DNA from: Kutzneria chonburiensis
Lineage (GTDB): Bacteria; Actinomycetota; Actinomycetes; Mycobacteriales; Pseudonocardiaceae
Direction of reading: 5' to 3'
DNA: 64,000 bases
Assembly (NCBI RefSeq): GCF_028622115.1
Contig: NZ_CP097263.1
Location: 1,984,001 to 2,048,000 of the forward strand
The notes beneath the pieces are model-generated. The model ran no database searches and was not told the origin of the DNA. It saw only the letters and a program-made list of their open reading frames with translations. The position numbers were made by a program, and so were the translations under genes. Position 1 is the first letter of the stretch, and each line of letters opens with the position of its first letter. Shown piece after piece: positions 1,388-56,507 of this stretch.

Positions 1388-4290
1388 ATGCGTCGACGAC
1401 TGCGGGTCGCCCTTGGCGCCGTGGCGGCGCTGATCGCCGCCCTGATCACACCGACTGTTAACGCCAACGCGGCGGCCGTGGCCTGCACGGTCGTCTATAC
1501 CACCAACGACTGGTCCAACGGCTTCACCGCCAACGTGGCCCTCACCAACAACGGCCCGGCGCTGACCAGCTGGTCGCTGACCTGGACCTTCCTGGACGGC
1601 CAGCAGGTGCAGCAGGGCTGGAGCGCCACCATCACCCAGTCCGGCGCCAAAGTTACCGCTAACAACCTGAGCTACAACGGGAATCTGCCGACGGGTGCGT
1701 CCACGTCCTTCGGCTTCAACGGCAGCAAGGGCGCGGCCAACCGGCCGCCGACGGACTTCGCCGTCAACGGCACCGCCTGCACCGGCCCGAACCAGGCCCC
1801 GACGGTGTCGCTGACCTCGCCGCGCGCCACCGACACCTACAACGCCCCGGCGACCATTCCGTTGGCCGCCACGGCGTCGGACAGCGACGGCACCATCAGC
1901 AAGGTCGAGTTCTACGCCGGCGACACGCTGCTGGCCACCGACACCACCGCCCCGTACGCCGGCAGCTGGACCAACGTGCCGGCCGGCACGTACTCCATCA
2001 CCGCCAAGGCGTACGACGACAAGGGCGCGTCCACGTCGTCCAGCCCGGTCGCGGTGAAGGTGTTGTCCGGCCCGACGATCGTGGCCTCACCGGCGACGGT
2101 CAGCGTCAAACAGGGTTCAACGGCCACCTTCGGTGTGAGCCTGGCCAGCGCCCCGACCGCCAGTGTGACCGTGAACATCGCCCGGACCTCCGGCAGCGCC
2201 GACCTGACGGCGTCGCCGACCAGCCTGACGTTCACCCCGTCGAACTGGCAGACCGCGCAGAACGTCACGGTCACCTCGGCCGACAACGGGGAGACCTGGG
2301 TTCCGCGGTCTTCACCGCCACGTCCGCCGGCTACGCGTCCGGCACGGTCACCGTGACCGAGGTGTCGAAGTCCACTTCGGACTACCAGGTGGAGTTCCTC
2401 AAGCAGTACAACAAGATCAAGGACCCGAACAGCGGCTACTTCCGCAAGCTGGGCAACCTGCTGGTGCCCTATCACTCGGTGGAGACGCTGGTCGTCGAGG
2501 CCCCGGACTACGGTCACGAGACCACCTCCGAGGCGTTCAGCTACTACCTGTGGCTGGAGGCGTCCTACGGCCGGATCACCCAGGACTGGGCCCCGTTCAA
2601 CGCGGCCTGGACCTCGCTGGAGACCTTCGCCATCCCGTCCAGCACCGACCAGCCGACCAACTCCGGCTACAACGCGAGCAAGCCGGCCACCTACGCGGCC
2701 GAGTACCCGAGCCCGTCGAAGTACCCGTCACAGCTGCAGTCCGGCGTGTCCGTCGGCAGTGACCCGATCGCCGGCGAGCTGAAGAACGCTTACGGCACAA
2801 GCGATGTCTACGGCATGCACTGGCTGCTGGACGTGGACAACATCTACGGCTTCGGCCACTGCGAGGACGGCACGAACACCGCGCCGGCGTTCATCAACAC
2901 CTTCCAGCGCGGCTCGCAGGAGTCGGTGTGGGAGACCGTCACGCAGCCGTCCTGCGACATGATGAAGTTCGGCGGCAAGAACGGCTACCTGGACCTGTTC
3001 ACCGGGGATTCCAGCTACGCCAAGCAGTGGAAGTACACCGACGCGCCGGACGCCGACGCCCGCGCCGTGCAGGTGGCGTTCCAGGCCGAGCAGTGGGCCA
3101 AGGCCCAGGGCAAGTCCTCGGCCGTCGCCGACGTGGTCAAGAAGGCGTCCAAGATGGGCGACTACCTGCGCTACTCGCTGTTCGACAAGTACTTCAAGAA
3201 GATCGGCAACTGCGTCGGGGCGAGCACCTGCGCCGCCGGCACCGGCAAGGACAGCGAGCACTACCTGATCTCCTGGTACTACGCGTGGGGCGGCTCGGCC
3301 GACCCGTCCAACGCCTGGGCCTGGCGGATCGGTGACGGGGCCGCGCACCAGGGCTACCAGAACCCCCTTGCGGCCTACGCACTGTCCACCGATCCGGGAC
3401 TGAAGCCGTTGTCCAGCACCGGGGCGAGCGACTGGGCGACCAGCCTCGGCCGGCAGCTGGAGTTCCTCCAGTGGCTGCAGTCCGCCGACGGCGGCATCGC
3501 CGGCGGCGCCACCAACAGCTGGGACGGCCAGTACGGCACGCCGCCGGCCGGCGACCCGACGTTCTACGGCATGTACTACGACTGGCAGCCGGTGTGGCAC
3601 GACCCGCCGAGCAACCAGTGGTTCGGCTTCCAGACGTGGGGCATGGAGCGGGTCGCCGAGTACTACCAGGCGACCAAGGACGCCCGGGCCAAGAAGATCC
3701 TGGACAAGTGGGTGCCGTGGGCGATCGCCAACACCACCGTGGGCACCGGCGGCTCGTTCCAGATCCCGTCCGACCTGACCTGGACCGGCGCCCCGGACAC
3801 GTGGAACGCCAGCAACCCCGGCGGCAACACGAGCCTGCACGTGGCGGTCAAGAACTACAGCCAGGACGTCGGTGTCGCGGCTTCGCTGGCCAAGACCCTG
3901 ATGTACTACGCGGCCGGCTCCGGCGACACGAAGTCGAAGACGACGGCCGAGGGTCTGCTCACGGCGCTGACCGGGCACGAGGACGCCAAGGGCATCGCGG
4001 TGCCCGAGACGCGGGCCGACTACAACCGGTTCGATGACGCGTACAACGCCTCTACGGACCAGGGTCTGTACGTGCCGCCGGGGTGGACCGGCACCATGCC
4101 CGACGGGGACAAGATCAGCTCCAGCTCGACGTTCGAGTCGATCCGGTCCTTCTACAAGAACGACCCCGACTGGTCCAAGGTGCAGTCCTATCTGGACGGT
4201 GGCCCCGCGCCGACGTTCACCTACCACCGGTTCTGGTCCCAGTCGGAGATCGCGACCGCGTTCGCGACGCACGTCGACCTCTTCGGATGA
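1388..4290 (+). pseudogene. GH48 reducing-end cellobiohydrolase with CBM2, broken by one frameshift
   Basis: Start ATG 1388 follows an AAGGA-type ribosome site and gives a signal peptide (about residues 1-30). Next come a CBM2 (31-130), an Ig-like domain (135-228), a second beta domain (229-320) and a GH48 catalytic domain of normal size. GH48 is recognised from FLKQYNKIKDPNSGYFR and GHETTSEAFSYYLW, the latter holding the catalytic-acid Glu. The frame breaks near 2288-2291: upstream reads ...SADNGET and downstream resumes ...GDLGSAVFTATSAGY. Adding one G to the GGGG run joins them into an ordinary domain (DNGGDLGSAVFT) and a protein of about 967 residues. Nothing else is damaged. It could be a sequencing error or a very recent mutation. 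The stop lies 7 bases before the GH5 start. Confidence 0.88.
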
Positions 4291-4297
4291 GGTGCAC

Positions 4298-5809: not shown

Positions 5810-5810
5810 C

Positions 5811-6514: not shown

Positions 6515-6524
6515 GGAGTTGATC

Positions 6525-7550: not shown

Positions 7551-7557
7551 CGTGACC

Positions 7558-7587
7558 GACGCCCCCGGTTCCCCGGCCGGGGGCGTC
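7558..7587. terminator. Hairpin ending the cellulase operon
   Basis: GACGCCCCCGG (7558-7568) pairs perfectly with CCGGGGGCGTC (7577-7587) across an 8-base loop, 7 bases after the LPMO stop. Confidence 0.75.
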
Positions 7588-7676
7588 ACCCGCCGGAGGC
7601 CGGGCGGTCACTGGCTGTGAGCGGGGTTCGGCGGCGTCCGTCTCGGGCATTCTCAAGGTGACGAAAGGACGTTGCC

Positions 7677-8564: not shown

Positions 8565-8723
8565 CAGGGGTGGGCGTCGGTCGAGTCGGTGGCGGCCGTC
8601 AGCGCGTTACACCCGAAGGTGCGGTGTCGGTTGGTGAACGGGTGACGGTTGCCTCCTGGCGTTCACGTTGACTGTGCAACGACGACGTCACGGGCGCATC
8701 CACCCTGTGACAGGAGCCAACCC

Positions 8724-11523: not shown

Positions 11524-11535
11524 TCGACGCCTTCG

Positions 11536-11709: not shown

Positions 11710-11723
11710 TGTTAGCGCTAACG
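11710..11723. promoter_or_regulatory. LacI-family operator TGTTAGCGCTAACG
   Basis: 13 of 14 bases match the recurring palindrome TGTTAGCGCTAACA. It lies 65 bases before the start of the secreted phosphatase/jacalin gene and nothing else starts nearby, so that gene probably belongs to the shared sugar regulon. Confidence 0.75.
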
Positions 11724-13285: not shown

Positions 13286-13656
13286 TCGTTGGTTGCCGTG
13301 ACAACCATCGTTGGACTTACCCCGCGCCCGGCAACTCGCCGGCTGCTGTTTGGCCGCCATGAACAACGGATCGGCAACGGCGTCGACCGGTCAACGCCTT
13401 TTTTCGCGAGTCGGACAATAGGCCGTGGCGGCCTCGTTTGAACATGGGATGTTTTCCCCGCCGCAGGCTCGTGACCAGGTGATATCGGGCACAGTGAATT
13501 GCCGTCCAGTGGTCTGGACATATTTCCGGCCGTGATGTGTTCGACACATTCGACGAGTGTCAATGCTAACGATTGCCATCCATGCTTGTGTGCCGTCTCC
13601 GCTCTCGTCTACTTTCCCTCCTCATCGACGGAATTCGACGGCAAAGGAGCCGGCGC

Positions 13657-14678
13657 GTGGTGACGATCATCGACGTGGCCCGTGCGGCCGGGGTGGCGCC
13701 CAGCACGGTGTCCTACGTGCTCAACGGGAAAAGGCCGATCTCGGCCGACACCCGCCGGCTGGTGGAGCAGAGCATCCGCCAGCTCGGCTACCGGCCGCAC
13801 AGCCGGCGGACGTCCGCGCCCCGACAGCGCACGGGGGTCATCGGCCTGCTGGCGCCGCTGCACTCGGCCAACACCGTGCCCACGTTGACCAGGTTCGTGG
13901 GCTCGGTGATGACCGCCGCCCACGCCCGGGACCACGACCTGTTGCTGCTCACCCACGGCACCGGCATGGCCGCCCTGCGGCGGGCGGTGTCCACCGCGGT
14001 CGCCGACGCGCTCATCGTGACGGACGTGCAGGCGTCGGACCCGAGGATCCCTGCGCTGACGGCTCTTGGCCGCCCGGTGGTGCTGGTCGGCGAGCCGGCG
14101 CAGTCGACGGGCCTGTCGTGTGTGACGCTCGACTTCGATGCGGCGGCCGCCGGCGTCGTCGAACACCTGGCGAGTCTGGGCCACCGGACCGTCGGGCTGG
14201 TGGGCTCGCCGCTGTCCACCACCGTGTGGGGGCCGACCACGCGCGGCAGTGCACGCGAACATTCGAGGCTACGGCGGCACGGTCCGGCATTCACGTGCGT
14301 CGGCGTCCGTGCGGGGATTCCGCCGATGCCGTGCGGAGCTGCCTCCAGGCGTTGTTGGCCGGGGAATCGGGCGTCACGGCGCTGGTCGTGGAGAACGAGG
14401 TCGTGCTGCCGGGCGTGCTGGAGCACCTGCACGCGCTGGGGCGACGGGTGCCCGAGGACATCTCGGTTGTCGCCGTTTGCCGGGATGAGACGGCCAGGCG
14501 AGCGCCGATTCCGCTCACGTCCGTCGCCGTGCCCACGGCCGACCTCGGCGCGCTCGCGGTGGACACGGTGTTACGCCAGTTCGAGGGGGAGGACGAACCC
14601 GAGGTGCGGCGGATCGTGCCCCGGCTCACCGTCCGGCAGAGCTCGGGACCCGCACCGGCCATTTCGTCGTGCGCATGA
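13657..14678 (+). pseudogene. LacI-family regulator, frameshifted in the sugar-binding core
   Basis: GTG 13657 lies 7 bases after AAGGAG. The N-terminus is a LacI HTH (VVTIIDVARAAGVAPSTVSYVLNGKR) written here as two parts: VVTIIDVARAAGV and APSTVSYVLNG. The core domain runs to about 14228, where the frame breaks in the GGGGG run at 14228-14232. One added base continues it as DHARQCTRTFEATAARSG and on to ALVVENEVVLPGVLEHL and ISVVAVCRDE, ending at 14678 (about 340 residues, normal length). The HTH recognition residues match those of the LacI gene at 41036, so the two are paralogs. It contains a TTA codon at 14571. Function is lost unless the break is a sequencing error. Confidence 0.78.
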
Positions 14679-14692
14679 TGTTAGCGCTCACA
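14679..14692. promoter_or_regulatory. Operator variant TGTTAGCGCTCACA
   Basis: One mismatch from TGTTAGCGCTAACA, immediately after the stop of the frameshifted LacI gene and 114 bases before a second copy at 14793. The pair flanks the likely promoter region of the next LacI gene. Confidence 0.65.
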
Positions 14693-14792: not shown

Positions 14793-14806
14793 TGTTATCG
14801 CTAACA
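14793..14806. promoter_or_regulatory. Operator TGTTATCGCTAACA before lacI
   Basis: One mismatch from the palindrome and about 20 bases before GTG 14826. With 14679 it forms a two-site arrangement suited to autorepression of the downstream regulator. The identical 14-mer recurs inside a permease gene at 46853. Confidence 0.75.
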
Positions 14807-14825: not shown

Positions 14826-15905
14826 GTGGTGAACCGCGGACGACGGGGGCTGACACAGGTGGCACGCACATCCTCGACCGACGGCGGTCGCAAGAACGCG
14901 GGGACGCCCGGCGTACGGCAGGCGAGCCTGACGGACGTGGCCGAGGTGGCGGGCGTGTCGCACATGACGGTGTCCCGGGTGATCAACGGCACCGGGCCGG
15001 TGCGGCCGGAGACCCGCGCACGGGTCGAGGCGGCCATTCGCGAGCTGGACTACCGCCCCAACTCGGCGGCGCGGGCGCTGGCCACGGGCAAGTCCGAGAC
15101 GCTGGGCGTGGTCGCGCTGGACTCCACGCTGTTCGGGCCGGCCAGCATGCTGTACGGCATCGAGCACGCGGCGCGTGAGGCCGGCTACGCCATCACCATC
15201 TCCAGTGTCGGCCGGCCGCAGCCACAGTCCATTTCGGACGCCGTGGAGAACCTGCGCCGGCAGGCGGTCGAGGGCATCCTGGTGATCGCCCCGCACGTCT
15301 CGGCCGGTCACGCGCTGGACGTCGTGCCGAGCGACGTTGCGCTGGTCGCCGTCGGCGCCGCCGATTCGGCACCGGTTCCGGTGGTGACCGTGGACCAGTT
15401 CGACGGCGCGCGGCGGGCCACCGAGCACCTGCTGGCCCTTGGGCACGAGACCGTGTGGCACGTGGCCGGTCCGTCGGACTGGCTGGAGGCCGGGGCCAGG
15501 GAGCGGGGTTGGCTGGAAACGCTGCTGTCGCACGATCTTGTGGTGCCGCCGGTCCTGCGGGGCGACTGGAGTCCTCGCTCGGGCTATGAGGCGGGGCAGG
15601 CCCTGGTGAAGATGGGCAACGTCACCGCCGTGTTCGTGGCCAACGACCAGATGGCCCTCGGCATGCTGCGGGCCTTCGCCGAGGCCGGCGTCGCCGTGCC
15701 GCGGGACGTGCACGTGGTCGGGTTCGACGACGTGCCCGAGGCGGCGTACTACAGCCCGCCGCTGACCACCGTCCGGCAGGACTTCATCGAGGTCGGCCGG
15801 CAGGCGTTCGAGTTGTTGCTGCTGCGGCTGCGTGAGGAGGCCCGCGGGGCGCGTCAGCTGATCACGCCGGAGCTCATCGTGCGGGAGAGCACCGGCCCCC
15901 GATAA
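14826..15905 (+). CDS. LacI-family regulator, candidate master regulator of the TGTTAGCGCTAACA regulon
   Basis: 359 residues from GTG 14826. GTG 14859 is an equally possible start, since the first 12 residues are not conserved-looking. HTH: VAEVAGVSHMTVSRVING, with hinge helix YRPNSAARAL, then a periplasmic-binding-protein-like core with FVANDQMALGMLRAF and VVGFDDVPEAAYYSPPLTT. Its own leader carries operators at 14679 and 14793, and a third (15947) lies just after its stop, before the importer genes. It is therefore the best candidate to bind that palindrome. Its recognition helix (SHMTV) differs from those of the other LacI proteins here (SGQTV, STGTV, APSTV). The effector is presumably arabinose, galactofuranose or a related sugar imported by the adjacent system. 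Confidence 0.9.
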   Translation: MVNRGRRGLTQVARTSSTDGGRKNAGTPGVRQASLTDVAEVAGVSHMTVSRVINGTGPVRPETRARVEAAIRELDYRPNSAARALATGKSETLGVVALDSTLFGPASMLYGIEHAAREAGYAITISSVGRPQPQSISDAVENLRRQAVEGILVIAPHVSAGHALDVVPSDVALVAVGAADSAPVPVVTVDQFDGARRATEHLLALGHETVWHVAGPSDWLEAGARERGWLETLLSHDLVVPPVLRGDWSPRSGYEAGQALVKMGNVTAVFVANDQMALGMLRAFAEAGVAVPRDVHVVGFDDVPEAAYYSPPLTTVRQDFIEVGRQAFELLLLRLREEARGARQLITPELIVRESTGPR

Positions 15906-15946: not shown

Positions 15947-15960
15947 TGTTAGCGCTAACG
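15947..15960. promoter_or_regulatory. Operator TGTTAGCGCTAACG before the furanose importer
   Basis: 13 of 14 bases match the palindrome. It sits 31 bases before the start of the ytfQ-like gene and 42 bases after the lacI stop. Confidence 0.8.
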
Positions 15961-17002: not shown

Positions 17003-18520
17003 ATGAACCAATCCCGAGCGATCCTCCGGATGACCGGCATCAGCAAGCGGTTCCCCGGCGTCACCGCCCTCGACGGCGTCGACTTCCGCCTGTTCCCCGG
17101 CGAGGTGCACGCCCTGATGGGCGAGAACGGCGCCGGAAAGTCGACCCTGATCAAGGTGTTGACCGGGGTCGAGGGTGTGGACGCGGGCGCGATCGAGTTG
17201 TCCGGGTCGCCGGTGGCCTTCGGCGGCCCGGACCAGGCCCAGCGGGCCGGCGTCAGCACGGTCTACCAGGAGGTGAACCTGTGTCCGAACCTGTCGGTCG
17301 CGGAGAACATCTTCATCGGCCGTGAGCCGCGCCGGTTCGGCCGCATCCAGTGGTCGCGGATGCGCAAGCGGGCCGAAGAGCTGTTGGCCCGGCTCGACCT
17401 TCGCGTCGACGTGTCGGCCGAGCTGGGCACGCAGTCGATCGCGGTGCAGCAGATGGTGGCCATCGCCCGCGCCCTCGACGTGCAGGCGCGGGTGCTGGTG
17501 CTCGACGAGCCGACGTCCAGTTTGGACGCCAAGGAGGTCGAGCAGCTGATGACCGTGCTGCGGGCGCTGCGCGCCGACGGCATGGCCATTCTGTTCGTGT
17601 CCCACTTCATCGACCAGGTTTTCGCCATCGCCGACCGGATGACCGTGCTGCGCAACGGAAAGCTCGTCGGCGAGTACCTCACCGCCGAGATGACGCCGGT
17701 CGAGCTGGTCCGGAAGATGATCGGCAAGGAACTGGCCGCGCTGGACGAGCTGGAGGTGTCCGAGCGGTCCCGGCCCGACGCGGACCCTCCGGTGCTGGTG
17801 TCGGCCGACGGGTTGGGCCGCAACGGCGCCATCGAGCCGTTCGCGTTAACAGTCAAGCGGGGCGAGGTGGTCGGGCTGGCCGGGCTGCTCGGCTCCGGCC
17901 GCACCGAGCTGGCCCGGCTGCTGTTCGGCGCCGACCACGCCGACGCCGGCACCGTCGACATCGACGGCCAGCGCGTGCACCTGCGGTCGCCTCGGGTGGC
18001 GATGAAGCACCGCATCGCCTTCTGTTCCGAGAACCGCAAGACCGAGGGCCTGATCGCCGAGCTGACCATCCGGGAGAACATCGCGCTGGCCGTGCAGGCC
18101 TCCCGCGGTTGGCTGCGGCCGATCCCGCGGCGGCGTCAGCTCGAACTGGCCGCCCGCTACATCGAGGCGCTGGACATCCGCCCGGCCGATCCCGAGGCCG
18201 TGGTGGGCACGCTGTCCGGCGGCAACCAGCAGAAGGTGCTGCTGGCCCGGTGGCTGGCCACCGAGCCGCGGCTGCTGATCCTGGACGAGCCCACCCGCGG
18301 CATCGACATCGGCGCCAAGGCGGAGATCCAGCGGCTGGTGGCGTCGCTGTCCGAGGACGGCATGGCCGTGCTGTTCGTCTCCGCCGAGCTGGAGGAGGTG
18401 CTGCGGCTGAGCCATCACGTGGCCGTGCTGCGTGACCGGCGCGTCGTGGCCCAGCTGGCCAACGAGGGGCTCACCCCGGAGGAGATCATGTCGACCATCG
18501 CGGACGGGACCGGATCATGA
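17003..18520 (+). CDS. ytfR: Sugar ABC importer ATPase with two cassettes, YtfR-type
   Basis: 505 residues with two ATP-binding cassettes, as in all RbsA/YtfR-type proteins. Cassette 1 has Walker A GENGAGKST (~residue 40), VLVLDEPTSSLD and a degenerate signature. Cassette 2 has the usual degenerate Walker A (GLLGSGRTELAR), FCSENRKTEGLI, LSGGNQQKVLLARWL and LLILDEPTRGIDIGAK. It powers import by the two permeases that follow; its last codons overlap the next start (ATGA). Codon 282 is TTA inside an operator-like CGTTCGCGTTAACA at 17838-17851 (three mismatches). Confidence 0.94.
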   Translation: MNQSRAILRMTGISKRFPGVTALDGVDFRLFPGEVHALMGENGAGKSTLIKVLTGVEGVDAGAIELSGSPVAFGGPDQAQRAGVSTVYQEVNLCPNLSVAENIFIGREPRRFGRIQWSRMRKRAEELLARLDLRVDVSAELGTQSIAVQQMVAIARALDVQARVLVLDEPTSSLDAKEVEQLMTVLRALRADGMAILFVSHFIDQVFAIADRMTVLRNGKLVGEYLTAEMTPVELVRKMIGKELAALDELEVSERSRPDADPPVLVSADGLGRNGAIEPFALTVKRGEVVGLAGLLGSGRTELARLLFGADHADAGTVDIDGQRVHLRSPRVAMKHRIAFCSENRKTEGLIAELTIRENIALAVQASRGWLRPIPRRRQLELAARYIEALDIRPADPEAVVGTLSGGNQQKVLLARWLATEPRLLILDEPTRGIDIGAKAEIQRLVASLSEDGMAVLFVSAELEEVLRLSHHVAVLRDRRVVAQLANEGLTPEEIMSTIADGTGS

Positions 18521-24226: not shown

Positions 24227-24240
24227 TGTTAGCGCTAACA
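24227..24240. promoter_or_regulatory. Perfect operator TGTTAGCGCTAACA before the GH43 gene
   Basis: Exact palindrome, 45 bases upstream of the minus-strand GH43 start and 79 bases past the stop of the neighbouring lacI gene. It most likely controls GH43. Confidence 0.85.
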
Positions 24241-41956: not shown

Positions 41957-43416
41957 TCAGCCGAGCGTCCACTGCTGGTTGCTGCCGCCGTTGCACGGCC
42001 ACAGTTCGAGCAAGGCGCCGTTGGCGGTCGACGCACCCGTGACGTCCAGGCACAGCCCGGACTGCGCGCCGACTATCGTGCCGTCGGAGTTGACGTTCCA
42101 CTGCTGGTTGGTCTGTCCGTTGCAGGACCACGTGATCACCTTGGTGCCGGCGCTGGTCCCTTGGCCAGAGGCGTCCAGACACAAGGTGTTACCGCTAACA
42201 GTAACCGTCAGCTGGTTCGACGAGGAGTGGGTCCAGGCCTGGTTCGCCTGGCCGTTGCACGTGTAGATCTGCGTCTGCGTGCCCTGCGTCGAGTTCGGCA
42301 CATCCGCGCACTTGCCCGCGCCCACGGCGTGCAGCGGACCGGTGGCAGCAGTGCTGGTGGTGGCGTACCCGGCGGCCGTGATGTTGGCCTGGACGGCGTT
42401 TTCCGTGGCGTCCGAGGGATAGCCGGTGGTCAGCACGCCTTCGTAGAAGGTGCCGGCGGAGCCGTTGCTGTTGTCGCCGCCGATGCCGAGGATGATCGCC
42501 CCCTCCTTGCGCATCGGGTTGTAGCCCGAGACGTTCGGCCGCGCGCCGTCGTAGAACGTGGACAGCGCGCCGGACTGGGCGTCGCCGCCGCGGATGGCCC
42601 AGTGGTTGGGGCCGCCCTTGACGATGGCGGTCAGATAGCGGTGGCTCACGCTCGGGTCGTTGGCGTTGTAGCCGGCGTTCACCCCCGAGTAGAGCCCGTT
42701 CTCCAGGTCGGCCATCACCCAGGGGCCGTTGCCCGGGCCGTAGCCCCAGACCTTGCTGTTGCCGAAGTAGATGGCCTCCATGGTGCCGTTGCCGTTGTCC
42801 CGGCTGTTGGTCTCGGCGTTGCCGTAGTCGAAGCAGCAGCCGCCGTTGAAGTGGGTGCCGTCGAAGATCGCGTACTCGCCCTCGGGCTGGTCGCCGGTGG
42901 CGACCCCGGCGGTGTTGTTGTTGCGGTAGCCGGTGCCTGGGGCGACGAAGACGCCGTACGCCTTGTGCCCGCCGACCATGGTCGGCGCGGCGGTGGCGTC
43001 GGCCAGGTTGTCGTAGCCGCCGGCGGCCGGGCCGTTGAAGCCGCCAGGGGTGCCTGGGTCAGGCTGTTGCCCTTGCCGGACTGGTCGTAGATCACGGTGA
43101 TCAGGCAGCTCGTGTTGGCGCAGAAGGAATCCTGCGCCGCGGCGTTGGCGACACCACCGACGCTGAGCGGTGTGATGTCACGCGTCGAGCCGTCGGAGGA
43201 GCGCTTCACCTGGTACAGCGGGCCGTTGTAGCCGCCGTAGAGCGCTCGGGTGGTGCTGTGCGCGGCGACGCAGGGCGTGCCACCAGCCGCGTAGATGTCG
43301 CACGGGCCTTGTGTGGCGGCGGTGGAGGCGGGCGCCGTGACGACGGCGAACGCGGTCGCCGCGGTCGCGGCCAGCAGGGCCCGCCCGAGTCGGGGCAGCC
43401 GTGCCCGAAAGACCAT
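41957..43416 (-). pseudogene. GH54 alpha-L-arabinofuranosidase with C-terminal CBM13, one frameshift
   Basis: ATG 43416 with AAGGAG upstream; signal peptide, then GH54 core: GPCDIYAAGGTPCVAAHSTT, ALYGGYNGPLYQV, LITVIYDQSGKGNSLTQAP, CCFDYGNAETNSRDNG and KEGAIILGIGGDNSNGSAG. The C-terminal ~130 residues are a ricin-type CBM13 (KCADVPNST, QTQIYTCNGQANQAW, LCLDASGQG), where fungal GH54 has CBM42. The frame breaks at the G-run 43047-43050 (plus strand): one added base turns ...LTQAPLAAST into ...LTQAPPGGFNGPAAGGYDNLA, joining both halves into about 486 residues. Secreted debranching of arabinan. An exact operator is 126 bases upstream and another lies in the CBM13. Confidence 0.85.
42187..42200. 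promoter_or_regulatory. Intragenic operator TGTTACCGCTAACA in the GH54 CBM13
   Basis: One mismatch from the palindrome. Coding strand GTT AGC GGT AAC (V-S-G-N) in the ricin-type module, about 1.35 kb downstream of the exact copy at 43542. Confidence 0.5.
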
Positions 43417-43541
43417 TGTGAGCTCCTTTGCCCATGGTCGAATGAATGGTGGCGGCCGCATTCGACAGCGCGGCCGCGATGATTTCCGAGCGAGAACGAC
43501 GGCCGTGCGGGCCCGATTTCCGGGGCACGTTCGCCGCGTAC

Positions 43542-43555
43542 TGTTAGCGCTAACA
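43542..43555. promoter_or_regulatory. Perfect operator TGTTAGCGCTAACA upstream of GH54
   Basis: Exact palindrome in the 245-base region between the GH54 start (43416) and the stop of the minus-strand lacI (43662). The rest of that region holds short inverted GTCGAAT elements (near 43437 and 43459) and no gene. Confidence 0.85.
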
Positions 43556-44855: not shown

Positions 44856-46142
44856 ATGATCGCGCGGGCCCGTGCCGCGGTCGCCGTGGCCGCAGTGTTA
44901 GCGCTAACAGCCTGCCAGGCCGGCCCGCCGTCGACAGCGGACGGCGGCACCGGGGCGGTGGACGACGGCACGACCATCACCATGTGGACCCGGTCCCCGA
45001 CGGCCACGTTCAGCCAGACGCTGGTGGACGCGTACAACGCGAGCCACAAGAACAAGGTGAAGCTGACCGTGTTCCCGGCCGACTCCTACCAGCAGAAGGT
45101 CGGCACGGCCGCCGGCGCCAAGCAGCTGCCCGACCTGCTGGCGTCCGATGTGGTGTACGCGCCCAACTACGCCGCCAACGGCGTGTTCATGGACCTCACC
45201 GCGCGGGTGAACCAGTTGCCGTTCAAGGCTTCCCTGGCCCCCGCGCACATGAAGGCCGCCGCGCACGACGGCAAGGAGTTCGCCGTCCCGCACGACATCG
45301 ACCTGTCGGCCATGTTCTACAACAAGGCGTTGTTCACCAAGGCCGGCCTCGACCCGGCCAAGCCGCCGACCACCCTCGCCGAGATCGTCGCTGACGCCAA
45401 GCAGATCAGCGCCCTCGGCGGCGACGTCAAGGGCTACTTCTTCGGCGGCGCCTGTCCCGGCTGCCAGCTGTTCACCAGTTGGCCGATGATCTGGGCGTCC
45501 GGCGGCACCGTGCTCAACGAGCAGGGGACCGCGTCCACCATCGACAATCCCGTTGCGTCCCAGGTGTATGCGACGCTGCACCAGCTCTACGCCGACGGTC
45601 TCGTGCCGGCGTCGGCCAAGGACGAGTCCGGTCCGACCTGGACCCAGTCCTTCCTCGACGGCAAGATCGGCATCCAGCCCATGGGCGCAACCGCCTTGCA
45701 GGGCATCAAGGAGGGCCCCGACCTCCAGGTCGGCGTCGCCCCGATCCCCGGTCTTACCGGCGGCAGCTCTTCGTTCGTCGGCGGCGACGTCCTCGGTGTT
45801 GGCGCCAACAGCCAGCACGCAGCCGCCGCGTGGGACTTCATCTCCTGGACGCTCTCCGACCAGGCTCAGGTGGACGTCGTGGCCAAGCACAAGAACATCA
45901 CCGTCCGGTCCGACCTCGCCGACAACACCTATGCCAAGCAGGATCCCCGCCTGGCCGTGTTCAACAAGCTCGCCGGCCAGGGCCAGACGCCCATCTCGGT
46001 CAACTTCGGCAAGACCTACAACGACACCAACGGCCCCTGGACCCAGACCGTGATCGACGCCGTCTTCGCCGCGACCGGCCCCGCGACCGCCCTGCACGAC
46101 CACAACGCCGCCATCACCGAGTCGCTGGCAAGTGGGGGCTGA
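44856..46142 (+). CDS. Sugar-binding lipoprotein of the GH127 locus
   Basis: 428 residues, ATG 44856 after TAGGAGA. Signal and lipobox LTAC (VLALTACQAG). Family 1 binding protein: TTITMWTRSPTATFSQTLVDAYNA, FNKALF-like MFYNKALFTKAGLDPAKPPTT, and YFFGGACPGCQLFTSW. Delivers the sugar to the next two permeases; beta-arabinofuranosyl oligosaccharides fit the enzymes downstream. The exact operator palindrome lies within the lipobox codons (44896), including a TTA codon, and a second symmetric variant is at 45797. Confidence 0.92.
   Translation: MIARARAAVAVAAVLALTACQAGPPSTADGGTGAVDDGTTITMWTRSPTATFSQTLVDAYNASHKNKVKLTVFPADSYQQKVGTAAGAKQLPDLLASDVVYAPNYAANGVFMDLTARVNQLPFKASLAPAHMKAAAHDGKEFAVPHDIDLSAMFYNKALFTKAGLDPAKPPTTLAEIVADAKQISALGGDVKGYFFGGACPGCQLFTSWPMIWASGGTVLNEQGTASTIDNPVASQVYATLHQLYADGLVPASAKDESGPTWTQSFLDGKIGIQPMGATALQGIKEGPDLQVGVAPIPGLTGGSSSFVGGDVLGVGANSQHAAAAWDFISWTLSDQAQVDVVAKHKNITVRSDLADNTYAKQDPRLAVFNKLAGQGQTPISVNFGKTYNDTNGPWTQTVIDAVFAATGPATALHDHNAAITESLASGG
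44896..44909. promoter_or_regulatory. Perfect intragenic operator TGTTAGCGCTAACA over the lipobox codons
   Basis: Exact palindrome starting at codon 14 of the SBP gene. Read as GTG TTA GCG CTA ACA GCC TGC (V-L-A-L-T-A-C): three rare codons in a row-and-skip pattern, TTA being the rarest in actinomycetes, encode the lipobox. About 105 bases past the predicted transcription start. Confidence 0.8.
45797..45810. promoter_or_regulatory. Intragenic symmetric variant TGTTGGCGCCAACA
   Basis: Two compensating mismatches keep full dyad symmetry. Codons GGT GTT GGC GCC AAC (G-V-G-A-N) in the SBP gene. Confidence 0.45.
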
Positions 46143-46143: not shown

Positions 46144-47067
46144 GTGGTGTCACTGTCGCCGCCCCGGCCCTCGGTGCGCCCGGCCCCGACGCCGACGCCC
46201 CGGCGAGCGTCGATCAGTCGGCATCGGGCCAGGCTCGGCCTGCTGTACGCGGCGCCGATGGCGGTGCTGGTGGGGACGCTGTTCGTGGTGCCGCTGCTGT
46301 TGATGGTGTGGATGTCGGTCAACCACTGGCCGCTGCTGGGGGCGTCGGCGCCGAACGGCGTGGCGAACTACAGCGCGCTGGGGGATCCGCTGTTTCTGCG
46401 GGCGGTGTGGTTTACCGCCAAGTACACGGTGGTGACCACGGTGGTGCTGGGCCTGATCGCGTTTGGGCTGGCCCTGCTGGTGCAGAGGAACCGGCGTGGG
46501 GTGGGGGCGGTCAGGACGGTGCTGTTCCTACCGAGCGCGGTGGGGCTGGCGTCGACGAGCCTGCTGTTCTACGGGCTGTTCACGACGGATTCCTCGCCGC
46601 TGAACGGACTCGTGCAGGCGATCGGGCTGGGGCGGGTGGACTGGCTGGGCTCGACGGGCACGGCGCTCGGCTCGACAGTAGCGATGATCACCTGGCGGTT
46701 TGCCGGGTTCTACATGCTGATCCTGATGACGGGCCTGCAAAGCATCGACCCGGTGCTGTACGAAGCGGCGCGGATCGACGGGGCCGGACGGTGGCAGACG
46801 CTGTGGCGGGTCACGCTTCCGCTGCTGCGGCCGACGCTTGCGCTGGCAATGGTGTTATCGCTAACAGGATCGCTGCTGGCCTTCGACCAGTTCTTCATCC
46901 TCACCGGCGGCCGGCACGACACGGCGACGGTGGTGATCGACATCTATCGCGAGGCGTTCCTGTCGCAGGACCTGGGCCGGGCGGCGGCGGTGTCGGTGGC
47001 GACGCTGGCCGTGCTGATCGTCGTGAACGTGGCGCAGCTGCGGCTGATCCGGCGGGAGGGCCGGTGA
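46144..47067 (+). CDS. Sugar ABC permease, MalF-like (GH127 locus)
   Basis: 307 residues from GTG 46144, just after the SBP stop; GTG 46132 overlaps the SBP gene and GTG 46147 is also possible. Hydrophobic helices begin LGLLYAAPMAVLVGTLF. EAA loop YEAARIDGAGRWQTLWRVTLPLL. Codon 238 is TTA within an operator (46853). Confidence 0.9.
   Translation: MVSLSPPRPSVRPAPTPTPRRASISRHRARLGLLYAAPMAVLVGTLFVVPLLLMVWMSVNHWPLLGASAPNGVANYSALGDPLFLRAVWFTAKYTVVTTVVLGLIAFGLALLVQRNRRGVGAVRTVLFLPSAVGLASTSLLFYGLFTTDSSPLNGLVQAIGLGRVDWLGSTGTALGSTVAMITWRFAGFYMLILMTGLQSIDPVLYEAARIDGAGRWQTLWRVTLPLLRPTLALAMVLSLTGSLLAFDQFFILTGGRHDTATVVIDIYREAFLSQDLGRAAAVSVATLAVLIVVNVAQLRLIRREGR
46853..46866. promoter_or_regulatory. Intragenic operator TGTTATCGCTAACA in permease gene
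   Basis: Identical to the site before lacI at 14793. Codons GTG TTA TCG CTA ACA (V-L-S-L-T), again with rare TTA and CTA, in a late membrane helix. Confidence 0.65.
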
Positions 47068-47870: not shown

Positions 47871-47888
47871 CAGACAGGAGAGGCCTCG

Positions 47889-49751: not shown

Positions 49752-49774
49752 CCCTGCCCTGGAGGAAAGACCCG

Positions 49775-51460: not shown

Positions 51461-51485
51461 ACAACCGATTCCCTGCGAGGGCCCG

Positions 51486-54224
51486 ATGAAGCGTCCTGTC
51501 GTACCACGACGATCGGTTCTCCTGGCGGTCGCCGCGCTCGCCATGATGGTCCCGGCGACCGCGGCGCACGCCGCCGACGGCTTCACCAGCACGATGGTCA
51601 ACCAGGCCAACGGGAACTGCGCCGACGTGCCAGGCGGCGCAGGCACCAGTGGCCTGCAACTCGTCCAGTGGTCCTGCAATTCCGGGACCAACCAGTCGTT
51701 CACGTTCACCCCCGTCTCCGGTGACGTGTACACAATCGGCACGGTCACCGCCGGGGACTGCGTCGACATCTCCGGCGCGTCCGGCAGTGACAACGCCGCG
51801 GTCATCCAGTACGGCTGCCACTCCGGCACGAACCAGCAGTTCCACGTGTCGGCTGTTAGCGCTAACATTTACAGCATTGCCTCGGTCAGCTCCGGCAAGT
51901 GCATCGCGCCGTCCGGCGACAGCTCGGCGAACAACACGGCGCTGGTTCAGTTGCCCTGTACGAACGTCGCCAGCCGGACCTGGCGGCTCCCGGGCTTCGG
52001 CGGCGGCACGACCCCGCCGCCGAGCGGTTACCAGGGCATTCCGAACCTCAACCCGAACGCGTGCCACAACTCCGGCCTGCCGCGGGCGTACGGCACGAAC
52101 TTCCAGACCCCGACCGACCCGAACGGCCAGGGCTTTCAGAACACCACGGCCCTGGGCTGGGACGGCAACTACTGGCCGGTCTTCGCCTACCTGTCCGGCT
52201 CGTTCTTCGCCCGTGGCGTGAACAGCACGTACAACGGCGTTTGCGGTGGGATGTACTCGTTCAGCGCGTACAACTACGGCGGTGCACCCGGCCGCCAGAG
52301 CGTGCAGTGGACCGAGGACAACGGCTACCTGCCGGCGATGAAGACCAGCCGCTCGTCGGGCAGCGTCGGCATCGCGATCAAGAACTTCGCCGACAAGGAA
52401 ACCATCAACGGCAACAGCTTCATGCTGGTCTACACCCGGGTTTCCGTCACCAACAGCGGATCCGCCGCGGTGACTGTGCCGCCTGGGGGCTCCGGTCCGA
52501 ACCTGGTGCGGCTGACCAGCTCCTCGCTGGACACCGTCCAACCCGGACAGACCAGCAACCACGACTTCGTGGTGGCGGTGGACAACTTCGGCAACGGCGC
52601 GGCGCTGCCCACGGGGTCGGTGCTGTCCGGTGGCGCACCGAACTACGACACTGCCTACAACCACATGGCCTCGTACTGGAACTCGAGGCTGGCCGAGCTG
52701 AACACGTTCACCCTGCCCAACACCACGCTGCCCAACACCGGCAACCTGGCCAACCCGGGTACCGCGCTGGCCAACGCCGACAAGGCCGGCACCATCTACA
52801 ACCTGATGATGCAGATCGGCCAGGCGCAGTTCTCCGGGGCCAACAACTACAACTGGATCCTCAACCATGACGTGCCCGGCGAGCTGACCGCCAAGTTCGA
52901 GACCGGCGACTTCCACGACGGCCGCAACCTGCTGCTGACCGCGCGGATCTCCGAGCAGGACAACTGGGACGAGGTCGGCGCCAACTGGTACTGGGACGGC
53001 GTGTGGAAGACGATGGGCGCCTGGGCGACCTATCTGGCCAAGACCGATGACACCTCGTTCGTCAGCCAGTTCTTCCACGACGACAGCAGCGGTTCCGGGC
53101 AGTGGGGACCCAGCCTGTACACCATCGCCCGGGTGAAGTACCCGGCGCAGCTGGCCTCCGATGGCACGCTGCAGACCAACTTCGACAACGACTCCACCGG
53201 CCGCTGGCTGTTCAGCAACTTCTCCGCGTTGCAGATGCTGGCGTCCTACAAGTACATCGCGACCAAGATCGGCCAGACCGGCGAGGCGCAGTGGGCCGAC
53301 GGGGCCTACACCAAGCTGCTCAACGCCCTCAACACCGTGGTCGGCCGCAACCAGTCCGCGAACGGCTTCAACTACCTGCCGTGCGAGGTGGACAAGCCCA
53401 ACAGCGCCAACCGCTGCAACATGACCAACGACGCCAACTGGGCGTCGCCGGGCTGGGTCGGGCAGAACCAGTGGTCGACCATGCTGGCCGGTGGGGCACT
53501 GACCGGGATCATGGGCGACCCCGGGCAGATCGACCGGATGTACCAGTGGGGCTTCAACCGGCTGTCCGGCGCGGGCTATCCCTATCCCACCTTCGGTGCG
53601 TTCAACGGGTATTCCACCGCGTACAACACCTCGTACTCCTCGGACGGCTTGTTCTCCAACACCTATCGTGACCTGCCGATCACCAGCTACGCCTGGCAGG
53701 TCAAGACCACGACCGGCGGCCCGAACGCCTGGTGGGAGGCCAACGGGGACGGTCCGGACCCGAACAACCCGTGGATCGGCAGCCATGCCGGGCCCGAGTT
53801 CGGCGCCTGCCCGTACGCGTGGCCGGTCGCCGGCCAGCAGCAGGGCCTGCTCGAATCCCTGGTGGCGGAAGGACTGTCGGCCAGCGGCTCGGGGCCGTAC
53901 ACCTACACCCGGCCGCTCTACATCGGACGCGGCGTGCCGAATGCCTGGCTCACCGCCGGCCAGACGCTCTCGGTCGGCAACCTGACCACCAGCTACGACG
54001 TCTCGTCGGGCAGCCGGTCGACGTACGGCGTCTCGATCTCCGTCGCCGCGGGTCGGACCGTGACGGTCACGTTGTCGGGTTCGCTGCCCGGCGGTCCGGT
54101 CTACATCCAGCTTCCGGCGTTCCTCAACACCGGCGTGACCGCCGTCAGCGGCGGCAGCTACAACGCCGGCACGCACACCGTCACCGCGAGCTCGAACACC
54201 GTGACGATCACCCTGGCCAGCTGA
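51486..54224 (+). CDS. Secreted CBM13 protein with a large helical-barrel-like domain, activity unknown
   Basis: 912 residues, ATG 51486 after GCGAGGG. Signal peptide (~1-30), a ricin-type CBM13 with three repeats (~32-168: CADVPGGAG, QLVQWSCNSGTNQSF; CVDISGASG, CHSGTNQQF; CIAPSGDSS), a Pro/Gly linker, then ~730 residues not recognised by name. That part has a beta-rich start and a helix-rich middle (DNWDEVGANWYWDGVWKTMG, WLFSNFSALQMLASYKYIA, WASPGWVGQNQWSTMLAGG) and a beta ending, a layout like (alpha/alpha)6-barrel glycosidases with acidic residues near aromatics. An endo- or biosidase acting on beta-arabinofuranosyl chains is possible by context, comparable in role to GH121, but no family match is claimed. 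Confidence 0.7.
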   Translation: MKRPVVPRRSVLLAVAALAMMVPATAAHAADGFTSTMVNQANGNCADVPGGAGTSGLQLVQWSCNSGTNQSFTFTPVSGDVYTIGTVTAGDCVDISGASGSDNAAVIQYGCHSGTNQQFHVSAVSANIYSIASVSSGKCIAPSGDSSANNTALVQLPCTNVASRTWRLPGFGGGTTPPPSGYQGIPNLNPNACHNSGLPRAYGTNFQTPTDPNGQGFQNTTALGWDGNYWPVFAYLSGSFFARGVNSTYNGVCGGMYSFSAYNYGGAPGRQSVQWTEDNGYLPAMKTSRSSGSVGIAIKNFADKETINGNSFMLVYTRVSVTNSGSAAVTVPPGGSGPNLVRLTSSSLDTVQPGQTSNHDFVVAVDNFGNGAALPTGSVLSGGAPNYDTAYNHMASYWNSRLAELNTFTLPNTTLPNTGNLANPGTALANADKAGTIYNLMMQIGQAQFSGANNYNWILNHDVPGELTAKFETGDFHDGRNLLLTARISEQDNWDEVGANWYWDGVWKTMGAWATYLAKTDDTSFVSQFFHDDSSGSGQWGPSLYTIARVKYPAQLASDGTLQTNFDNDSTGRWLFSNFSALQMLASYKYIATKIGQTGEAQWADGAYTKLLNALNTVVGRNQSANGFNYLPCEVDKPNSANRCNMTNDANWASPGWVGQNQWSTMLAGGALTGIMGDPGQIDRMYQWGFNRLSGAGYPYPTFGAFNGYSTAYNTSYSSDGLFSNTYRDLPITSYAWQVKTTTGGPNAWWEANGDGPDPNNPWIGSHAGPEFGACPYAWPVAGQQQGLLESLVAEGLSASGSGPYTYTRPLYIGRGVPNAWLTAGQTLSVGNLTTSYDVSSGSRSTYGVSISVAAGRTVTVTLSGSLPGGPVYIQLPAFLNTGVTAVSGGSYNAGTHTVTASSNTVTITLAS
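51854..51867. promoter_or_regulatory. Perfect intragenic operator TGTTAGCGCTAACA in the CBM13 codons
   Basis: Exact palindrome, read GTT AGC GCT AAC ATT (V-S-A-N-I) between CBM13 repeats, with the rare GTT, GCT and ATT codons. About 370 bases into the gene and 7 kb from the operon promoter. Confidence 0.7.
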
Positions 54225-54232
54225 GCCGAACA

Positions 54233-54260
54233 GCGCCGGTGCGCGTCCGCGCACCGGCGC
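54233..54260. terminator. Hairpin between the CBM13 enzyme and GH146 genes
   Basis: GCGCCGGTGCGCG (54233-54245) pairs with CGCGCACCGGCGC (54248-54260), only 2 unpaired bases between, so the real loop is a little larger. In-operon position suggests partial termination or mRNA end protection. Confidence 0.65.
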
Positions 54261-54281
54261 TTCCTGGGAAAGGTGCACACG

Positions 54282-56507
54282 ATGATCTCTTTCGACCGAC
54301 GCACCATGCTCAAGGCCGTCGGCGCGGCCTCGGCCGGCGTCGCACTCGCGCCGGCACTGGCGCCGACCGCGGCCGCCGCGCCGACTCCCGTTGGCGTGGC
54401 GGCGAATCCGTTCCCGCTGGGCGCGGTCCGCCTCCAGGCCGGACCGTTCCTGGACAACATGAACCGCCAGCTGGCCTACTTCCGGTTCGTCGACCCGGAC
54501 CGGCTGCTGCACATGTTCCGGCTCAATGTCGGCCTGCCCAGCTCGGCCCAGCCCTGCGGCGGCTGGGAAAGCCCGGACACCGAGCTGCGCGGCCACTCCA
54601 CCGGCCACCTGATGTCCGGCCTGGCCCAGGCTTACGCCAACACGGGCGACACCACGTACAAGAACAAGGGCGACTACCTCGTGAGTTCCCTTGCCGCGTG
54701 CCAGAACGCGTCGCCGAACGCCGGCTTCCACGGCGGCTACCTGTCGGCCTATCCGGAGAACTTCTTCGACCGCTTGGAAAGCGGCCAGCAGGTGTGGGCG
54801 CCGTACTACACCCTGCACAAGATCATGGCCGGCCTGCTCGACCAGTACAACCTGGCCGGCAACAGCCAGGCACTGACCGTGCTGACCGCCATGGCGGCGT
54901 GGGTGAAGTGGCGCACCGACCGGCTCAGCCAGTCCCAGATGCAGGCCGCGCTGAACACGGAGTTCGGCGGCATGCCCGAGGTACTGGCCAACCTCTACCT
55001 TGTCAGCGGTAACAGGGACCATCTCACCACGGCCCAGCGGTTCGACCACGCCCGCATCCTGGACCCGCTGGCCGCCAACCAGGACCAGCTCGCCGGCAAC
55101 CACGCCAACACCCAGATCCCGAAGATCATCGGGGCGATCCAGGAGTACCACGCCAGCGGCACGACCCGGTACCGGGACATCGCCGACAACTTCTGGCGGA
55201 TCGTCACCGCCCACCACAGCTACGTGATCGGCGGCAACTCCAACGGCGAGTACTTCCAGACCCCCGACGCGATCGCCGGCCAGCTCTCGGACACCACGTG
55301 CGAGGTCTGCAACACGTACAACATGTTGAAGCTGACCCGACAGCTGTTCTTCACCGACCCCACCCGCGCCGAGCTGATGGACTACTACGAGCTGGCGCTG
55401 CTCAACCAGATCCTCGGCGAGCAGGACCCGACCTCCGCGCACGGGTTCGTCACGTACTACACGCCGCTGCGTGCCGGCGGCATCAAGACCTACGCCAACG
55501 ACTACGACGACTTCACCTGCGACCACGGCACCGGGATGGAGTCGCAGACCAAGTTCGCCGACAGCATCTACTTCTACGCCGGCGAGACGCTGTACGTGAA
55601 CCTGTTCACCGCCTCGGTGCTGACCTGGCCGGGACGGTCGATCACGGTCAAGCAGGACACCGCTTTCCCGAGCTCGACCAGCACCCGGCTCACCATCGGC
55701 GGCACCGGCCACATCGCGCTGAAGATCCGCATCCCGGCCTGGACCTCGGGCGCGACGATCAAGGTCAACGGCGCGGCGCAGAACATCGCCGTCACGCCGG
55801 GGACGTACGCGACGATCGACCGCACCTGGGCCAACGGCGACGTGATCGACGTGTCGCTGCCGGCAGTGCTGAGTTTCCCGCGGGCCAACGACAATTCCGG
55901 CGACGGGGCGGTGAAGTACGGACCGGTCGTGCTGGCCGGCCAGTACGGCACCACCGATCTCGGCGGTGTACTTCCCACGCTGCGTACCGACACTCTCGTG
56001 CAGGACGCGGCGAATCCCTTGCGCTTCACGGCGACCGCGAGCACCGGGTCGGTGTCGCTGCTGCCGTTCCATCAGACCCACCACACCCGCTACACGGTGT
56101 ACTGGAAGATCGCCGGTACGCCGCCGCAGGGCACCTCGTACGAAGCCGAGGCCAGCGGCAACACCCTCGGCGGCCAGGCCGCCGTGCGCAGTTCGTCCGG
56201 TGCCTCGGGCGGCGCGCTGGTCGGCTACGTCGGCAACGGCACCGCGAACTACCTGCGGTTCAACAACGTCACCGGCACCTCCGGCACACACAAGATCACT
56301 GTCTACTACGCCTCCGGCGAAGATCGCTCGATTGCAGTTAGCGCCAACAATGGCGCGGCGACAACGGTCGCCACCCCCAACACCGGCGGCTGGGACACCG
56401 TCGGCTCCGTGACCGTCACCCTCACGTTGGCGGCCGGCGCCAACACCGTTCTGATCACCAACCCCGCCGGCTGGGCGCCGGACATCGACCGAATCGTGGT
56501 GAGCTGA
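54282..56507 (+). CDS. Secreted GH146-type beta-L-arabinofuranosidase with CBM6/35-type module
   Basis: 741 residues from ATG 54282, about 9 bases after GGGAAAGG; GTG 54273 is too close. A twin-arginine signal (SFDRRTMLKAVG) suggests export by Tat, perhaps with its metal bound. DUF1680 core (~45-600): GGWESPDTELRGHSTGHLMSG, LHKIMAGLLDQYNLAG, GGNSNGEYFQ. Zinc-site candidates C340, E341 and C343 in TTCEVCNTYNML, and C413 in DFTCDHGTGMES, where many relatives have two adjacent Cys and this one has Cys-Asp. The C-terminal module (~618-741) starts YEAEASGNTLGG. Likely releases beta-L-arabinofuranose outside the cell. Confidence 0.87.
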   Translation: MISFDRRTMLKAVGAASAGVALAPALAPTAAAAPTPVGVAANPFPLGAVRLQAGPFLDNMNRQLAYFRFVDPDRLLHMFRLNVGLPSSAQPCGGWESPDTELRGHSTGHLMSGLAQAYANTGDTTYKNKGDYLVSSLAACQNASPNAGFHGGYLSAYPENFFDRLESGQQVWAPYYTLHKIMAGLLDQYNLAGNSQALTVLTAMAAWVKWRTDRLSQSQMQAALNTEFGGMPEVLANLYLVSGNRDHLTTAQRFDHARILDPLAANQDQLAGNHANTQIPKIIGAIQEYHASGTTRYRDIADNFWRIVTAHHSYVIGGNSNGEYFQTPDAIAGQLSDTTCEVCNTYNMLKLTRQLFFTDPTRAELMDYYELALLNQILGEQDPTSAHGFVTYYTPLRAGGIKTYANDYDDFTCDHGTGMESQTKFADSIYFYAGETLYVNLFTASVLTWPGRSITVKQDTAFPSSTSTRLTIGGTGHIALKIRIPAWTSGATIKVNGAAQNIAVTPGTYATIDRTWANGDVIDVSLPAVLSFPRANDNSGDGAVKYGPVVLAGQYGTTDLGGVLPTLRTDTLVQDAANPLRFTATASTGSVSLLPFHQTHHTRYTVYWKIAGTPPQGTSYEAEASGNTLGGQAAVRSSSGASGGALVGYVGNGTANYLRFNNVTGTSGTHKITVYYASGEDRSIAVSANNGAATTVATPNTGGWDTVGSVTVTLTLAAGANTVLITNPAGWAPDIDRIVVS
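55001..55014. promoter_or_regulatory. Intragenic operator-like TGTCAGCGGTAACA
   Basis: Two mismatches from the palindrome, in the GH146 gene (GTC AGC GGT AAC, V-S-G-N). Weak alone. Confidence 0.3.
56336..56349. promoter_or_regulatory. Intragenic operator-like AGTTAGCGCCAACA
   Basis: Two mismatches, in the C-terminal module of the GH146 gene (GCA GTT AGC GCC AAC, A-V-S-A-N). The neighbouring codons are GC-ending, so the GTT stands out. Confidence 0.4.

Follow-up and report, generated by a model that had tools for sequence, protein, structure and literature searches.

Probable recent gain of gene-body operators in an arabinose-type LacI-family regulon of Kutzneria chonburiensis

Background

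The LacI family of regulators, to which CebR and CcpA belong, includes the closest described parallels to the system reported here. That system consists of a 14-bp palindrome, TGTTAGCGCTAACA (half-sites TGTTAGC-GCTAACA), which recurs between and within genes in a 64,000-nucleotide stretch of the genome of the soil actinomycete K. chonburiensis (the window; positions 1984001-2048000 of a single-contig genome of 10.41 Mb, referred to as G000), and of P0001, a LacI-family protein encoded in the window that is the likely binder.

In Actinobacteria, the regulon of AraQ-type LacI arabinose regulators comprises araBDA and araFGH (PMC5928203, PMC6882875). The system of G000 is similar in that its repressor is of the LacI family and a paralog of P0001 adjoins araB, araD, araA, and a sugar ATP-binding cassette (ABC) transporter, whereas the two AraQ operators spelled out in those sources read TGTGAGC-GCTCACA and stand upstream of genes; the G000 palindrome is not this sequence and lies mostly in genes. 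For CebR, also an actinomycete regulator, a 14-bp palindrome within coding sequence was reported at +1507 of txtB in Streptomyces scabies (PMC5332605), the only such site in the part of the table covered here, against 39 deep within genes in G000 that are recent gains where tested. Roadblocks formed by CcpA at cre sites have been described in Bacillus (PMC4348106), and P0001 might by analogy block elongation downstream of promoters; in that source, however, cre is discussed between genes and CcpA acts with P-Ser-HPr, whereas P0001 looks like a local sugar repressor.

Coding-region operators are known in Escherichia coli for LacI in lacZ and for PurR in purB, and a comparative survey of the LacI family placed less than 1% of sites in coding regions, the reach of its search into genes being uncertain (PMC4052901); in G000, by comparison, 39 of 63 sites in the islands described below are deep. 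LacI is an established roadblock to RNA polymerase in E. coli cells (PMC4132739). Intragenic PhoB sites of E. coli resemble those of G000 in being many and unconserved between species, and were judged inert and ascribed to genetic drift (PMC10294691). Inert intragenic sites are expected at chance numbers (PMC10294691, PMC6397444), whereas the sites of G000 lie about ninetyfold above a codon-shuffle expectation. Our literature search for the 14-mer found no paper, and in open-access full texts we found no case in which a single local repressor had acquired operators in gene bodies by the dozen within a genus and had itself been duplicated. On balance we favour the reading that the palindromes belong to an arabinose-type LacI regulon that has recently gained operators in gene bodies, where they most likely serve as roadblocks to elongation.

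Results and discussion

Excess of the palindrome within genes

The preliminary description of the window had listed 18 positions of the palindrome, and sequence and mismatch number were verified for 18 of 18; two in-gene sites with two mismatches, at 19031 and 32339, were missing from that list. Genes were called with our own codon-based caller, so that gene starts are approximate, and a site was termed deep when it lay at least 50 bp from the gene start and at least 30 bp from the stop codon. The window holds 20 sites with at most two mismatches, 12 of them deep, one at a gene 3' end, one 40 bp into a gene, and six intergenic. Genome-wide, 39 sites with at most one mismatch and 68 with at most two were counted, against 0 and 9 for the reversed pattern that served as a control. 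The sequence examined comprised 560 kb of islands, picked for sites listed by this count, and 280 kb of control stretches; all 39 sites with at most one mismatch and 63 of the 68 fall in the islands, and none in the controls. Called genes are overlapped by 44 of these 63 and wholly contain 43. By position, 39 are deep (spread over 35 genes, 19 with at most one mismatch), 19 intergenic, three at gene starts, and two at gene ends, and a matrix built from sister-genome sites gave, at 10 bits or more, 71 island sites in similar places (44 deep, 20 intergenic, four at starts, three at ends). The initial claim that one palindrome recurs inside genes and not just between them was borne out, and more strongly than first noted.

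The islands were chosen for having sites, but the null model was run on those same genes. When synonymous codons were shuffled within each of 430 island genes for 300 rounds, sites with at most one mismatch appeared 0.017 times on average (maximum 1) against 22 observed, and those with at most two 0.47 times (maximum 3) against 43; 247 control genes held none. Among 420 palindromes made of the same half-site letters, TGTTAGCGCTAACA ranked first with 22 and 43 matches in island genes at the two stringencies, while the remaining 419 averaged 0.01 and 0.42 with maxima of 1 and 10. Chance or an amino-acid motif is ruled out by these two tests as the source of the in-gene copies. The matrix scan, with a weight matrix made from 55 sites of four sister genomes only (G001-G004) and applied to island and control genes, agreed: at 14 bits or more, island genes gave 40 matches where 0.89 were expected, and control genes gave none. 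A de novo scan of genes for inverted repeats ranked TGTTA-N4-TAACA first in the islands and did not list it in control genes.

The other strong repeat to emerge, GTCCA-N3-TGGAC, was about tenfold over-represented in the coding DNA of islands and controls alike, with 32 of 36 in-gene copies in one frame, S-x-(V/L/M)-D. Its excess is probably a codon-context effect, and it shows a limit of codon shuffling as a null.

The 43 in-gene sites were read in the two frames previously noted, 30 as V-S-A-N and 13 as L-A-L-T, and none in the frame in which the palindrome holds stop codons. The earlier statement that all codons involved are rare held for GTT (3.5% of synonyms), GCT (3.1%), TTA (0.2%), CTA (0.7%), and ACA (3.0%), and failed for AGC (31%), AAC (93%), and GCG (37%). 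The proposal that selection acts on the bases and not on the amino acids is backed by the codon shuffle, by the sister-site matrix, and by 15 gained sites, where 26 codon changes out of 61 replace the amino acid. Deep copies share their sequence with the promoter sites, including the even length and central CG of LacI/GalR-family operators (PMC4052901), the CG being almost invariant across the sister logo. The position two bases beyond the palindrome, which was not part of the search, holds a purine in 72 of 78 half-flanks of deep sites and 29 of 38 of intergenic ones; this preference is weaker in sister sites (64%), and codon structure may contribute to it in deep sites. Codons ending in A or T were in excess both two and five bases off the site (11/39 and 10/39), so this flank test is not operator-specific.

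Lineage-specific gain of deep sites

The four sister genomes contain 14-22 sites each with at most two mismatches, against 6-10 for controls. Under the same rules, and with DNA examined around 55 of 70 sister sites (mostly around the sisters' own sites) and around 78 of 175 sites of four genomes from two other genera of the family, deep sites numbered 1/55 in G001-G004, 0/15 in G128, 3/20 in G141, 0/17 in G143, and 0/26 in G158, or 4 of 133 altogether. Among 200 genomes of the family including G000, 75 have a site with at most one mismatch, and the highest count after the 39 of G000 is 35. One locus of G141 (L195, G141:C33:630000-649999) carries three in-gene copies within 20 kb, the only other relative examined with several, and is perhaps a parallel case. 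In G128, G141, G143, and G158 the sites often occur in pairs about 55-145 bp apart.

Sister DNA was aligned over 43-59 kb per sister at 78% identity or more, which made 28 of the 63 island sites comparable. All seven intergenic and all three start sites are common to the sisters, whereas 15 of the 16 deep sites compared and one of two end sites were found in G000 only (10/10 intergenic or start sites shared versus 1/16 deep; Fisher p 2e-6). The sole shared deep site, 1933427, was compared with G003 only. Conversely, 28 of 32 sister sites in the alignments have a counterpart in G000; of the remaining four, three are alignment gaps or edges over a site otherwise present and one has three mismatches in G000. 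G002 aligns at 2018368-2025956 and 2027327-2036480 at about 87% identity and has two sites there, against seven in G000. Conservation of the site bases in orthologs, proposed as a check in the preliminary description, was not borne out: the compared deep sites are almost all lineage-specific gains, which also disposes of old conserved intragenic operators as an explanation. The deep sites outside the alignments may have been gained likewise. The candidate operators of the window are as follows, with GH denoting glycoside hydrolase families.

1651-1664: deep, two mismatches, CBM2/Ig-domain protein gene; no sister alignment
11710-11723: intergenic, one mismatch; no sister alignment
14679-14692: promoter site with one mismatch, upstream of P0001; not in sister alignments
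14793-14806: promoter site with one mismatch, upstream of P0001; found in all four sisters, the G001 alignment having an extra base
15947-15960: at the start of sugar ABC transporter genes (ytfQRT-like); common to sisters
19031-19044: deep, two mismatches, YtfT-like permease gene 18517-19539 (plus strand); 4-6 mismatches in four sisters
24227-24240: exact, before GH43 gene 21023-24181 (minus strand); exact in four sisters
25565-25578: deep, ABC permease gene 25468-26382 (plus strand), at +97; 3-4 mismatches in four sisters
30628-30641: deep, two mismatches, GH5 gene 30383-31390 (plus strand); absent from the one sister aligned
32339-32352: deep, two mismatches, Na/H exchanger gene (non-carbohydrate)
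34393-34406: 17 bp from the 3' end of mandelate-racemase-like gene 34376-35530 (minus strand); absent from the one sister aligned
39409-39422: deep, pectate lyase gene 38591-39832 (minus strand); absent from two sisters aligned
42187-42200: deep, GH54-type/ricin gene 41957-42979 (minus strand); eight mismatches in three closest orthologs
43542-43555: exact, intergenic, upstream of the GH54-type arabinofuranosidase gene; common to G002, the sole sister aligned
44896-44909: exact, in signal-peptide codons (VLALTAC) of an ABC solute-binding protein gene; exact in two sisters aligned
45797-45810: deep, two mismatches, solute-binding protein gene 44856-46142 (plus strand); absent from two sisters aligned
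46853-46866: deep, ABC permease gene 46258-47067 (plus strand), at +595; sister codons differ
51854-51867: exact, deep, gene 51543-54224 (plus strand) for an 893-residue ricin-lectin protein, at +311; absent from two sisters aligned
55001-55014: deep, two mismatches, GH127 gene 54282-56507 (plus strand); no sister alignment
56336-56349: second deep site of the same GH127 gene, two mismatches; no sister alignment

At 46853 the codons are GTG TTA TCG CTA ACA here and GTG CTG TCG CTG ACC in two sisters, and at 42187 the protein reads TVSGNT here and ALGGTT or TLGGTT in three sisters. Two conserved sites read in the L-A-L-T frame, 44896 and genome position 1537333, bring TTA into the early codons of, respectively, a solute-binding protein gene and the ribulokinase gene; in Streptomyces, TTA codons depend on bldA. 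For the GH54-type arabinofuranosidase open reading frame in the region 41957-43437 of the window (minus strand), the Pfam domain was matched only from position 111 and DNA similarity to the sisters reaches about 43437, and the 5' part of the gene looks out of frame, possibly by a frameshift or sequencing error.

Codon alignments could be built at 15 gained sites (14 of them among the 15 above) with orthologs at least 70% identical, after the near-start sites, one gapped site, and one shared site were excluded. There, 4.87 of 14 bases differ from the sister, compared with 1.92 expected from the whole gene, and 70 of 73 differences run toward the motif, which is largely a consequence of site selection. 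The codon changes comprise 35 synonymous and 26 amino-acid-changing ones. A mobile or inserted element is rejected as the source: for deep sites that have an ortholog of at least 60% identity, the site windows align gap-free to the closest one, with two exceptions, 1957322 and 2035854 (window 51854; the sister DNA carries six additional bases).

The palindrome could also be written into genes without selection by mutation, for instance if existing copies served as donors in gene conversion, and the clustering of several changes within 14 bp fits such a process. So do four ricin-lectin modules (L039-L041, genome 3239725-3260394) that share 69-82% DNA identity and have the site at an equivalent position close to the stop codon, which may reflect either convergent gain or gene conversion at the locus; duplication of a single module into paralogs would account at most for these four, at 3.24-3.26 Mb. 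Such a process is nevertheless very improbable as a general cause: differences per base fall from 0.35 in the site to 0.09-0.27 in the flanking 5-bp bins, with 0.14 gene-wide, the sites have little in common beyond the purine two bases out, and each is adapted to the frame it is read in and to the residues around it. Selection for the sites is the presumed cause of the gains.

The gene-body copies might instead bind the repressor without effect, as proposed for most intragenic PhoB sites of E. coli, which like 15 of the 16 deep sites compared here are unconserved between species (PMC10294691). We regard this as quite improbable. Such sites should occur at chance numbers, yet 43 were observed where 0.47 were expected, control genes had none, gained sites tolerated replacements of amino acids, and in eight relatives with the same motif only 4 of the 133 sites examined are deep. 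For the first of these reasons, inertness fits least among itself and two further alternatives considered below, titration and domain silencing.

The regulator and its paralog

The preliminary description had pointed to the regulator encoded at 14826, and its assignment to the LacI family was confirmed by an N-terminal LacI helix-turn-helix and a periplasmic-binding-like effector domain, both above cut-off.

14826-15905 (plus strand): LacI-family repressor P0001, likely binder of the palindrome; PF00356 and PF13377 above cut-off

The closest relatives of P0001 in named genomes are from Kutzneria, and its neighbours are the ytfQRT-like genes. Just upstream, an open reading frame at window 13557-14678 (plus strand) is LacI-like over its last 105 or so residues only and is possibly the remnant of another LacI-type gene.

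A paralog with 88% identity lies in the same genome at G000:C1:1536137 and has the gene linkage of AraQ-type regulators. Its neighbours include, by model, a ribulokinase, an L-ribulose-5-phosphate 4-epimerase, and a ChvE-type binding protein above cut-off; the L-arabinose isomerase model scored 591 bits against a cut-off of 622 on the piece of the gene that falls inside the locus. In every one of the four sisters a single P0001 ortholog occurs at 84-86% identity, the next best match being at 43-46%. In the tree the two G000 copies join with support of 100/98, and among the five genomes compared only G000 has two, which places the duplication in this lineage. The recognition helix SHMTVSR is identical in P0001, the paralog, and the four sister orthologs, whereas other LacI proteins of the islands have different recognition helices (e.g. 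GQ, QK, VP, TG versus HM); a different LacI protein as binder is therefore disfavoured, since the helix seen in the sister orthologs is retained by P0001 and its paralog alone. Two members of the genus lacking a P0001 ortholog at E<=1e-60 have no site with at most one mismatch. Gene neighbourhood, co-occurrence, and helix conservation suggest that P0001 likely binds the palindrome, and the araBDA linkage that arabinose may be the inducer.

That duplication and site gain fall in the same lineage would also suit titration, in which gene-body sites soak up repressor like a sponge after the duplication, adjusting its free level and so sharpening or delaying induction; an in-gene position compatible with uniform and the presence of non-carbohydrate genes among the hosts agree with it. 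A sponge requires no clustering, however, and a handful of islands, 560 kb in total out of 10.4 Mb, hold every one of the 39 sites with at most one mismatch, so that we find titration unlikely.

Host genes

By our own sorting, 26 of the 39 deep sites lie in genes for glycoside hydrolases, a pectate lyase, other carbohydrate-binding or lectin-domain proteins, or sugar-type ABC transporters. The glycoside hydrolase families that host them are GH2, 5, 10, 29, 35, 42, 54, 115, and 127, where GH29 and GH54 are the numbers that we take to correspond to the Pfam names. The 13 others are in genes for an AMP-binding enzyme, an MFS transporter (two sites), a carboxylesterase, a penicillin amidase (two), a RidA-like protein, a HAD hydrolase, a purine-permease/peptidase-like protein, a 1717-residue protein without a Pfam match, the Na/H exchanger, an amidase, and a sigma factor. 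Ten of these 13 sites fall within 1.52-1.62 Mb and four have one mismatch. RidA orthologs in two sisters lack the site; matches to the amidase, at 40-44%, are too distant for orthologs, and no penicillin amidase ortholog was found in the four sisters at E<=1e-60 in a search run without a positive control.

Mode of action

The palindrome would be the operator of a LacI-family repressor, P0001 together with its 88% paralog, whose sites in common with the sisters lie at promoters and gene starts. Duplication of the repressor took place in this lineage, and by silent as well as protein-altering substitutions operators appear to have arisen within coding regions, chiefly those serving the breakdown of plant polysaccharides and the uptake of sugars. 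In the absence of sugar, dimers bound to gene bodies would halt elongating RNA polymerase as a roadblock, so that operons without a promoter operator would enter the regulon and those with one would be controlled more tightly.

The 39 deep sites, lying well inside genes, are presumed to be downstream of the promoters and within the transcribed region. The relative position of sites in genes is compatible with uniform (Kolmogorov-Smirnov p 0.57, n=43). The 44 matrix-scored deep sites divide into 11 whose predicted transcription unit has an operator no more than 500 bp before or 50 bp after its start, and 33 in units without one, counting among the latter the GH54-type gene 41957-42979, whose operator at 43542 sits 562 bp ahead of the called start. 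Uniform position and the 33 of 44 sites in units without a promoter operator are compatible with a roadblock that works independently of position.

The E. coli lac system is the classic case of auxiliary intragenic operators that serve looping, and the LacI tetramerisation helix is located in the C-terminal part of the protein. Repressors that bridge many sites might fold or coat whole clusters and shut them whatever the position of the promoter, as suggested by a second site within 3 kb for 33 of 44 deep sites and by sites in genes on both strands and in neighbouring unrelated genes. P0001 and its paralog, however, match the NCBIfam lacI model only to position 333 of 358, an indirect sign that the C-terminal part for the LacI tetramer is missing, and looping or domain silencing therefore appears improbable. 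Roadblocking is the most economical reading, since it works anywhere that is transcribed, needs no promoter geometry, and suits a protein that seems to be without the LacI C-terminal part. Rather doubtfully, we also put forward a broader reading, that much of the control of this local sugar regulon has shifted from promoters to gene bodies, as arrays of dozens of operators spanning entire gene clusters and giving promoter-independent, cluster-wide repression that includes neighbouring genes and that evolved as one genus diverged, through changes to codons and proteins and alongside the repressor duplication.

Several points weigh against the roadblock reading. The notion that only carbohydrate genes are hosts did not survive, given that 13 of the 39 deep sites have hosts with no annotated link to carbohydrates, and six of these at 1.57-1.62 Mb have no sugar genes among the named genes there. 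Binding may be weak at the 20 deep sites that carry two mismatches; sister DNA was alignable at only 16 of the 39, and the transcription units were predicted solely by strand and spacing. Sister genes (n=313) are also above shuffle, with eight matches of at least 14 bits against 0.12, located at gene starts or ends bar one deep site. The codon shuffle ignores codon-pair context, the probable source of at least one other apparent palindrome, and the case for selection comes from excess and pattern in the sequences.

Conclusions

Single intragenic operators of LacI-family proteins and roadblocking were known already; so far as our limited searches go, the novelty lies in the scale, the rapid gain, and the cost in altered proteins. 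Intragenic transcription factor sites in bacteria have often been read as products of drift (PMC10294691, PMC6397444), and G000 offers a clean counter-example, given the excess of about 90 times over shuffled codons, the absence of 15 of 16 compared sites from the sisters, and a cost paid in rare codons and amino-acid changes. Two questions become testable: whether selection acts on gene-body operators, and how a regulon can grow while its promoters are left untouched. The finding is also a warning for regulon reconstruction limited to upstream regions, and for analyses of codon usage and of nonsynonymous to synonymous substitution (dN/dS), as DNA-binding sites can drive protein change.

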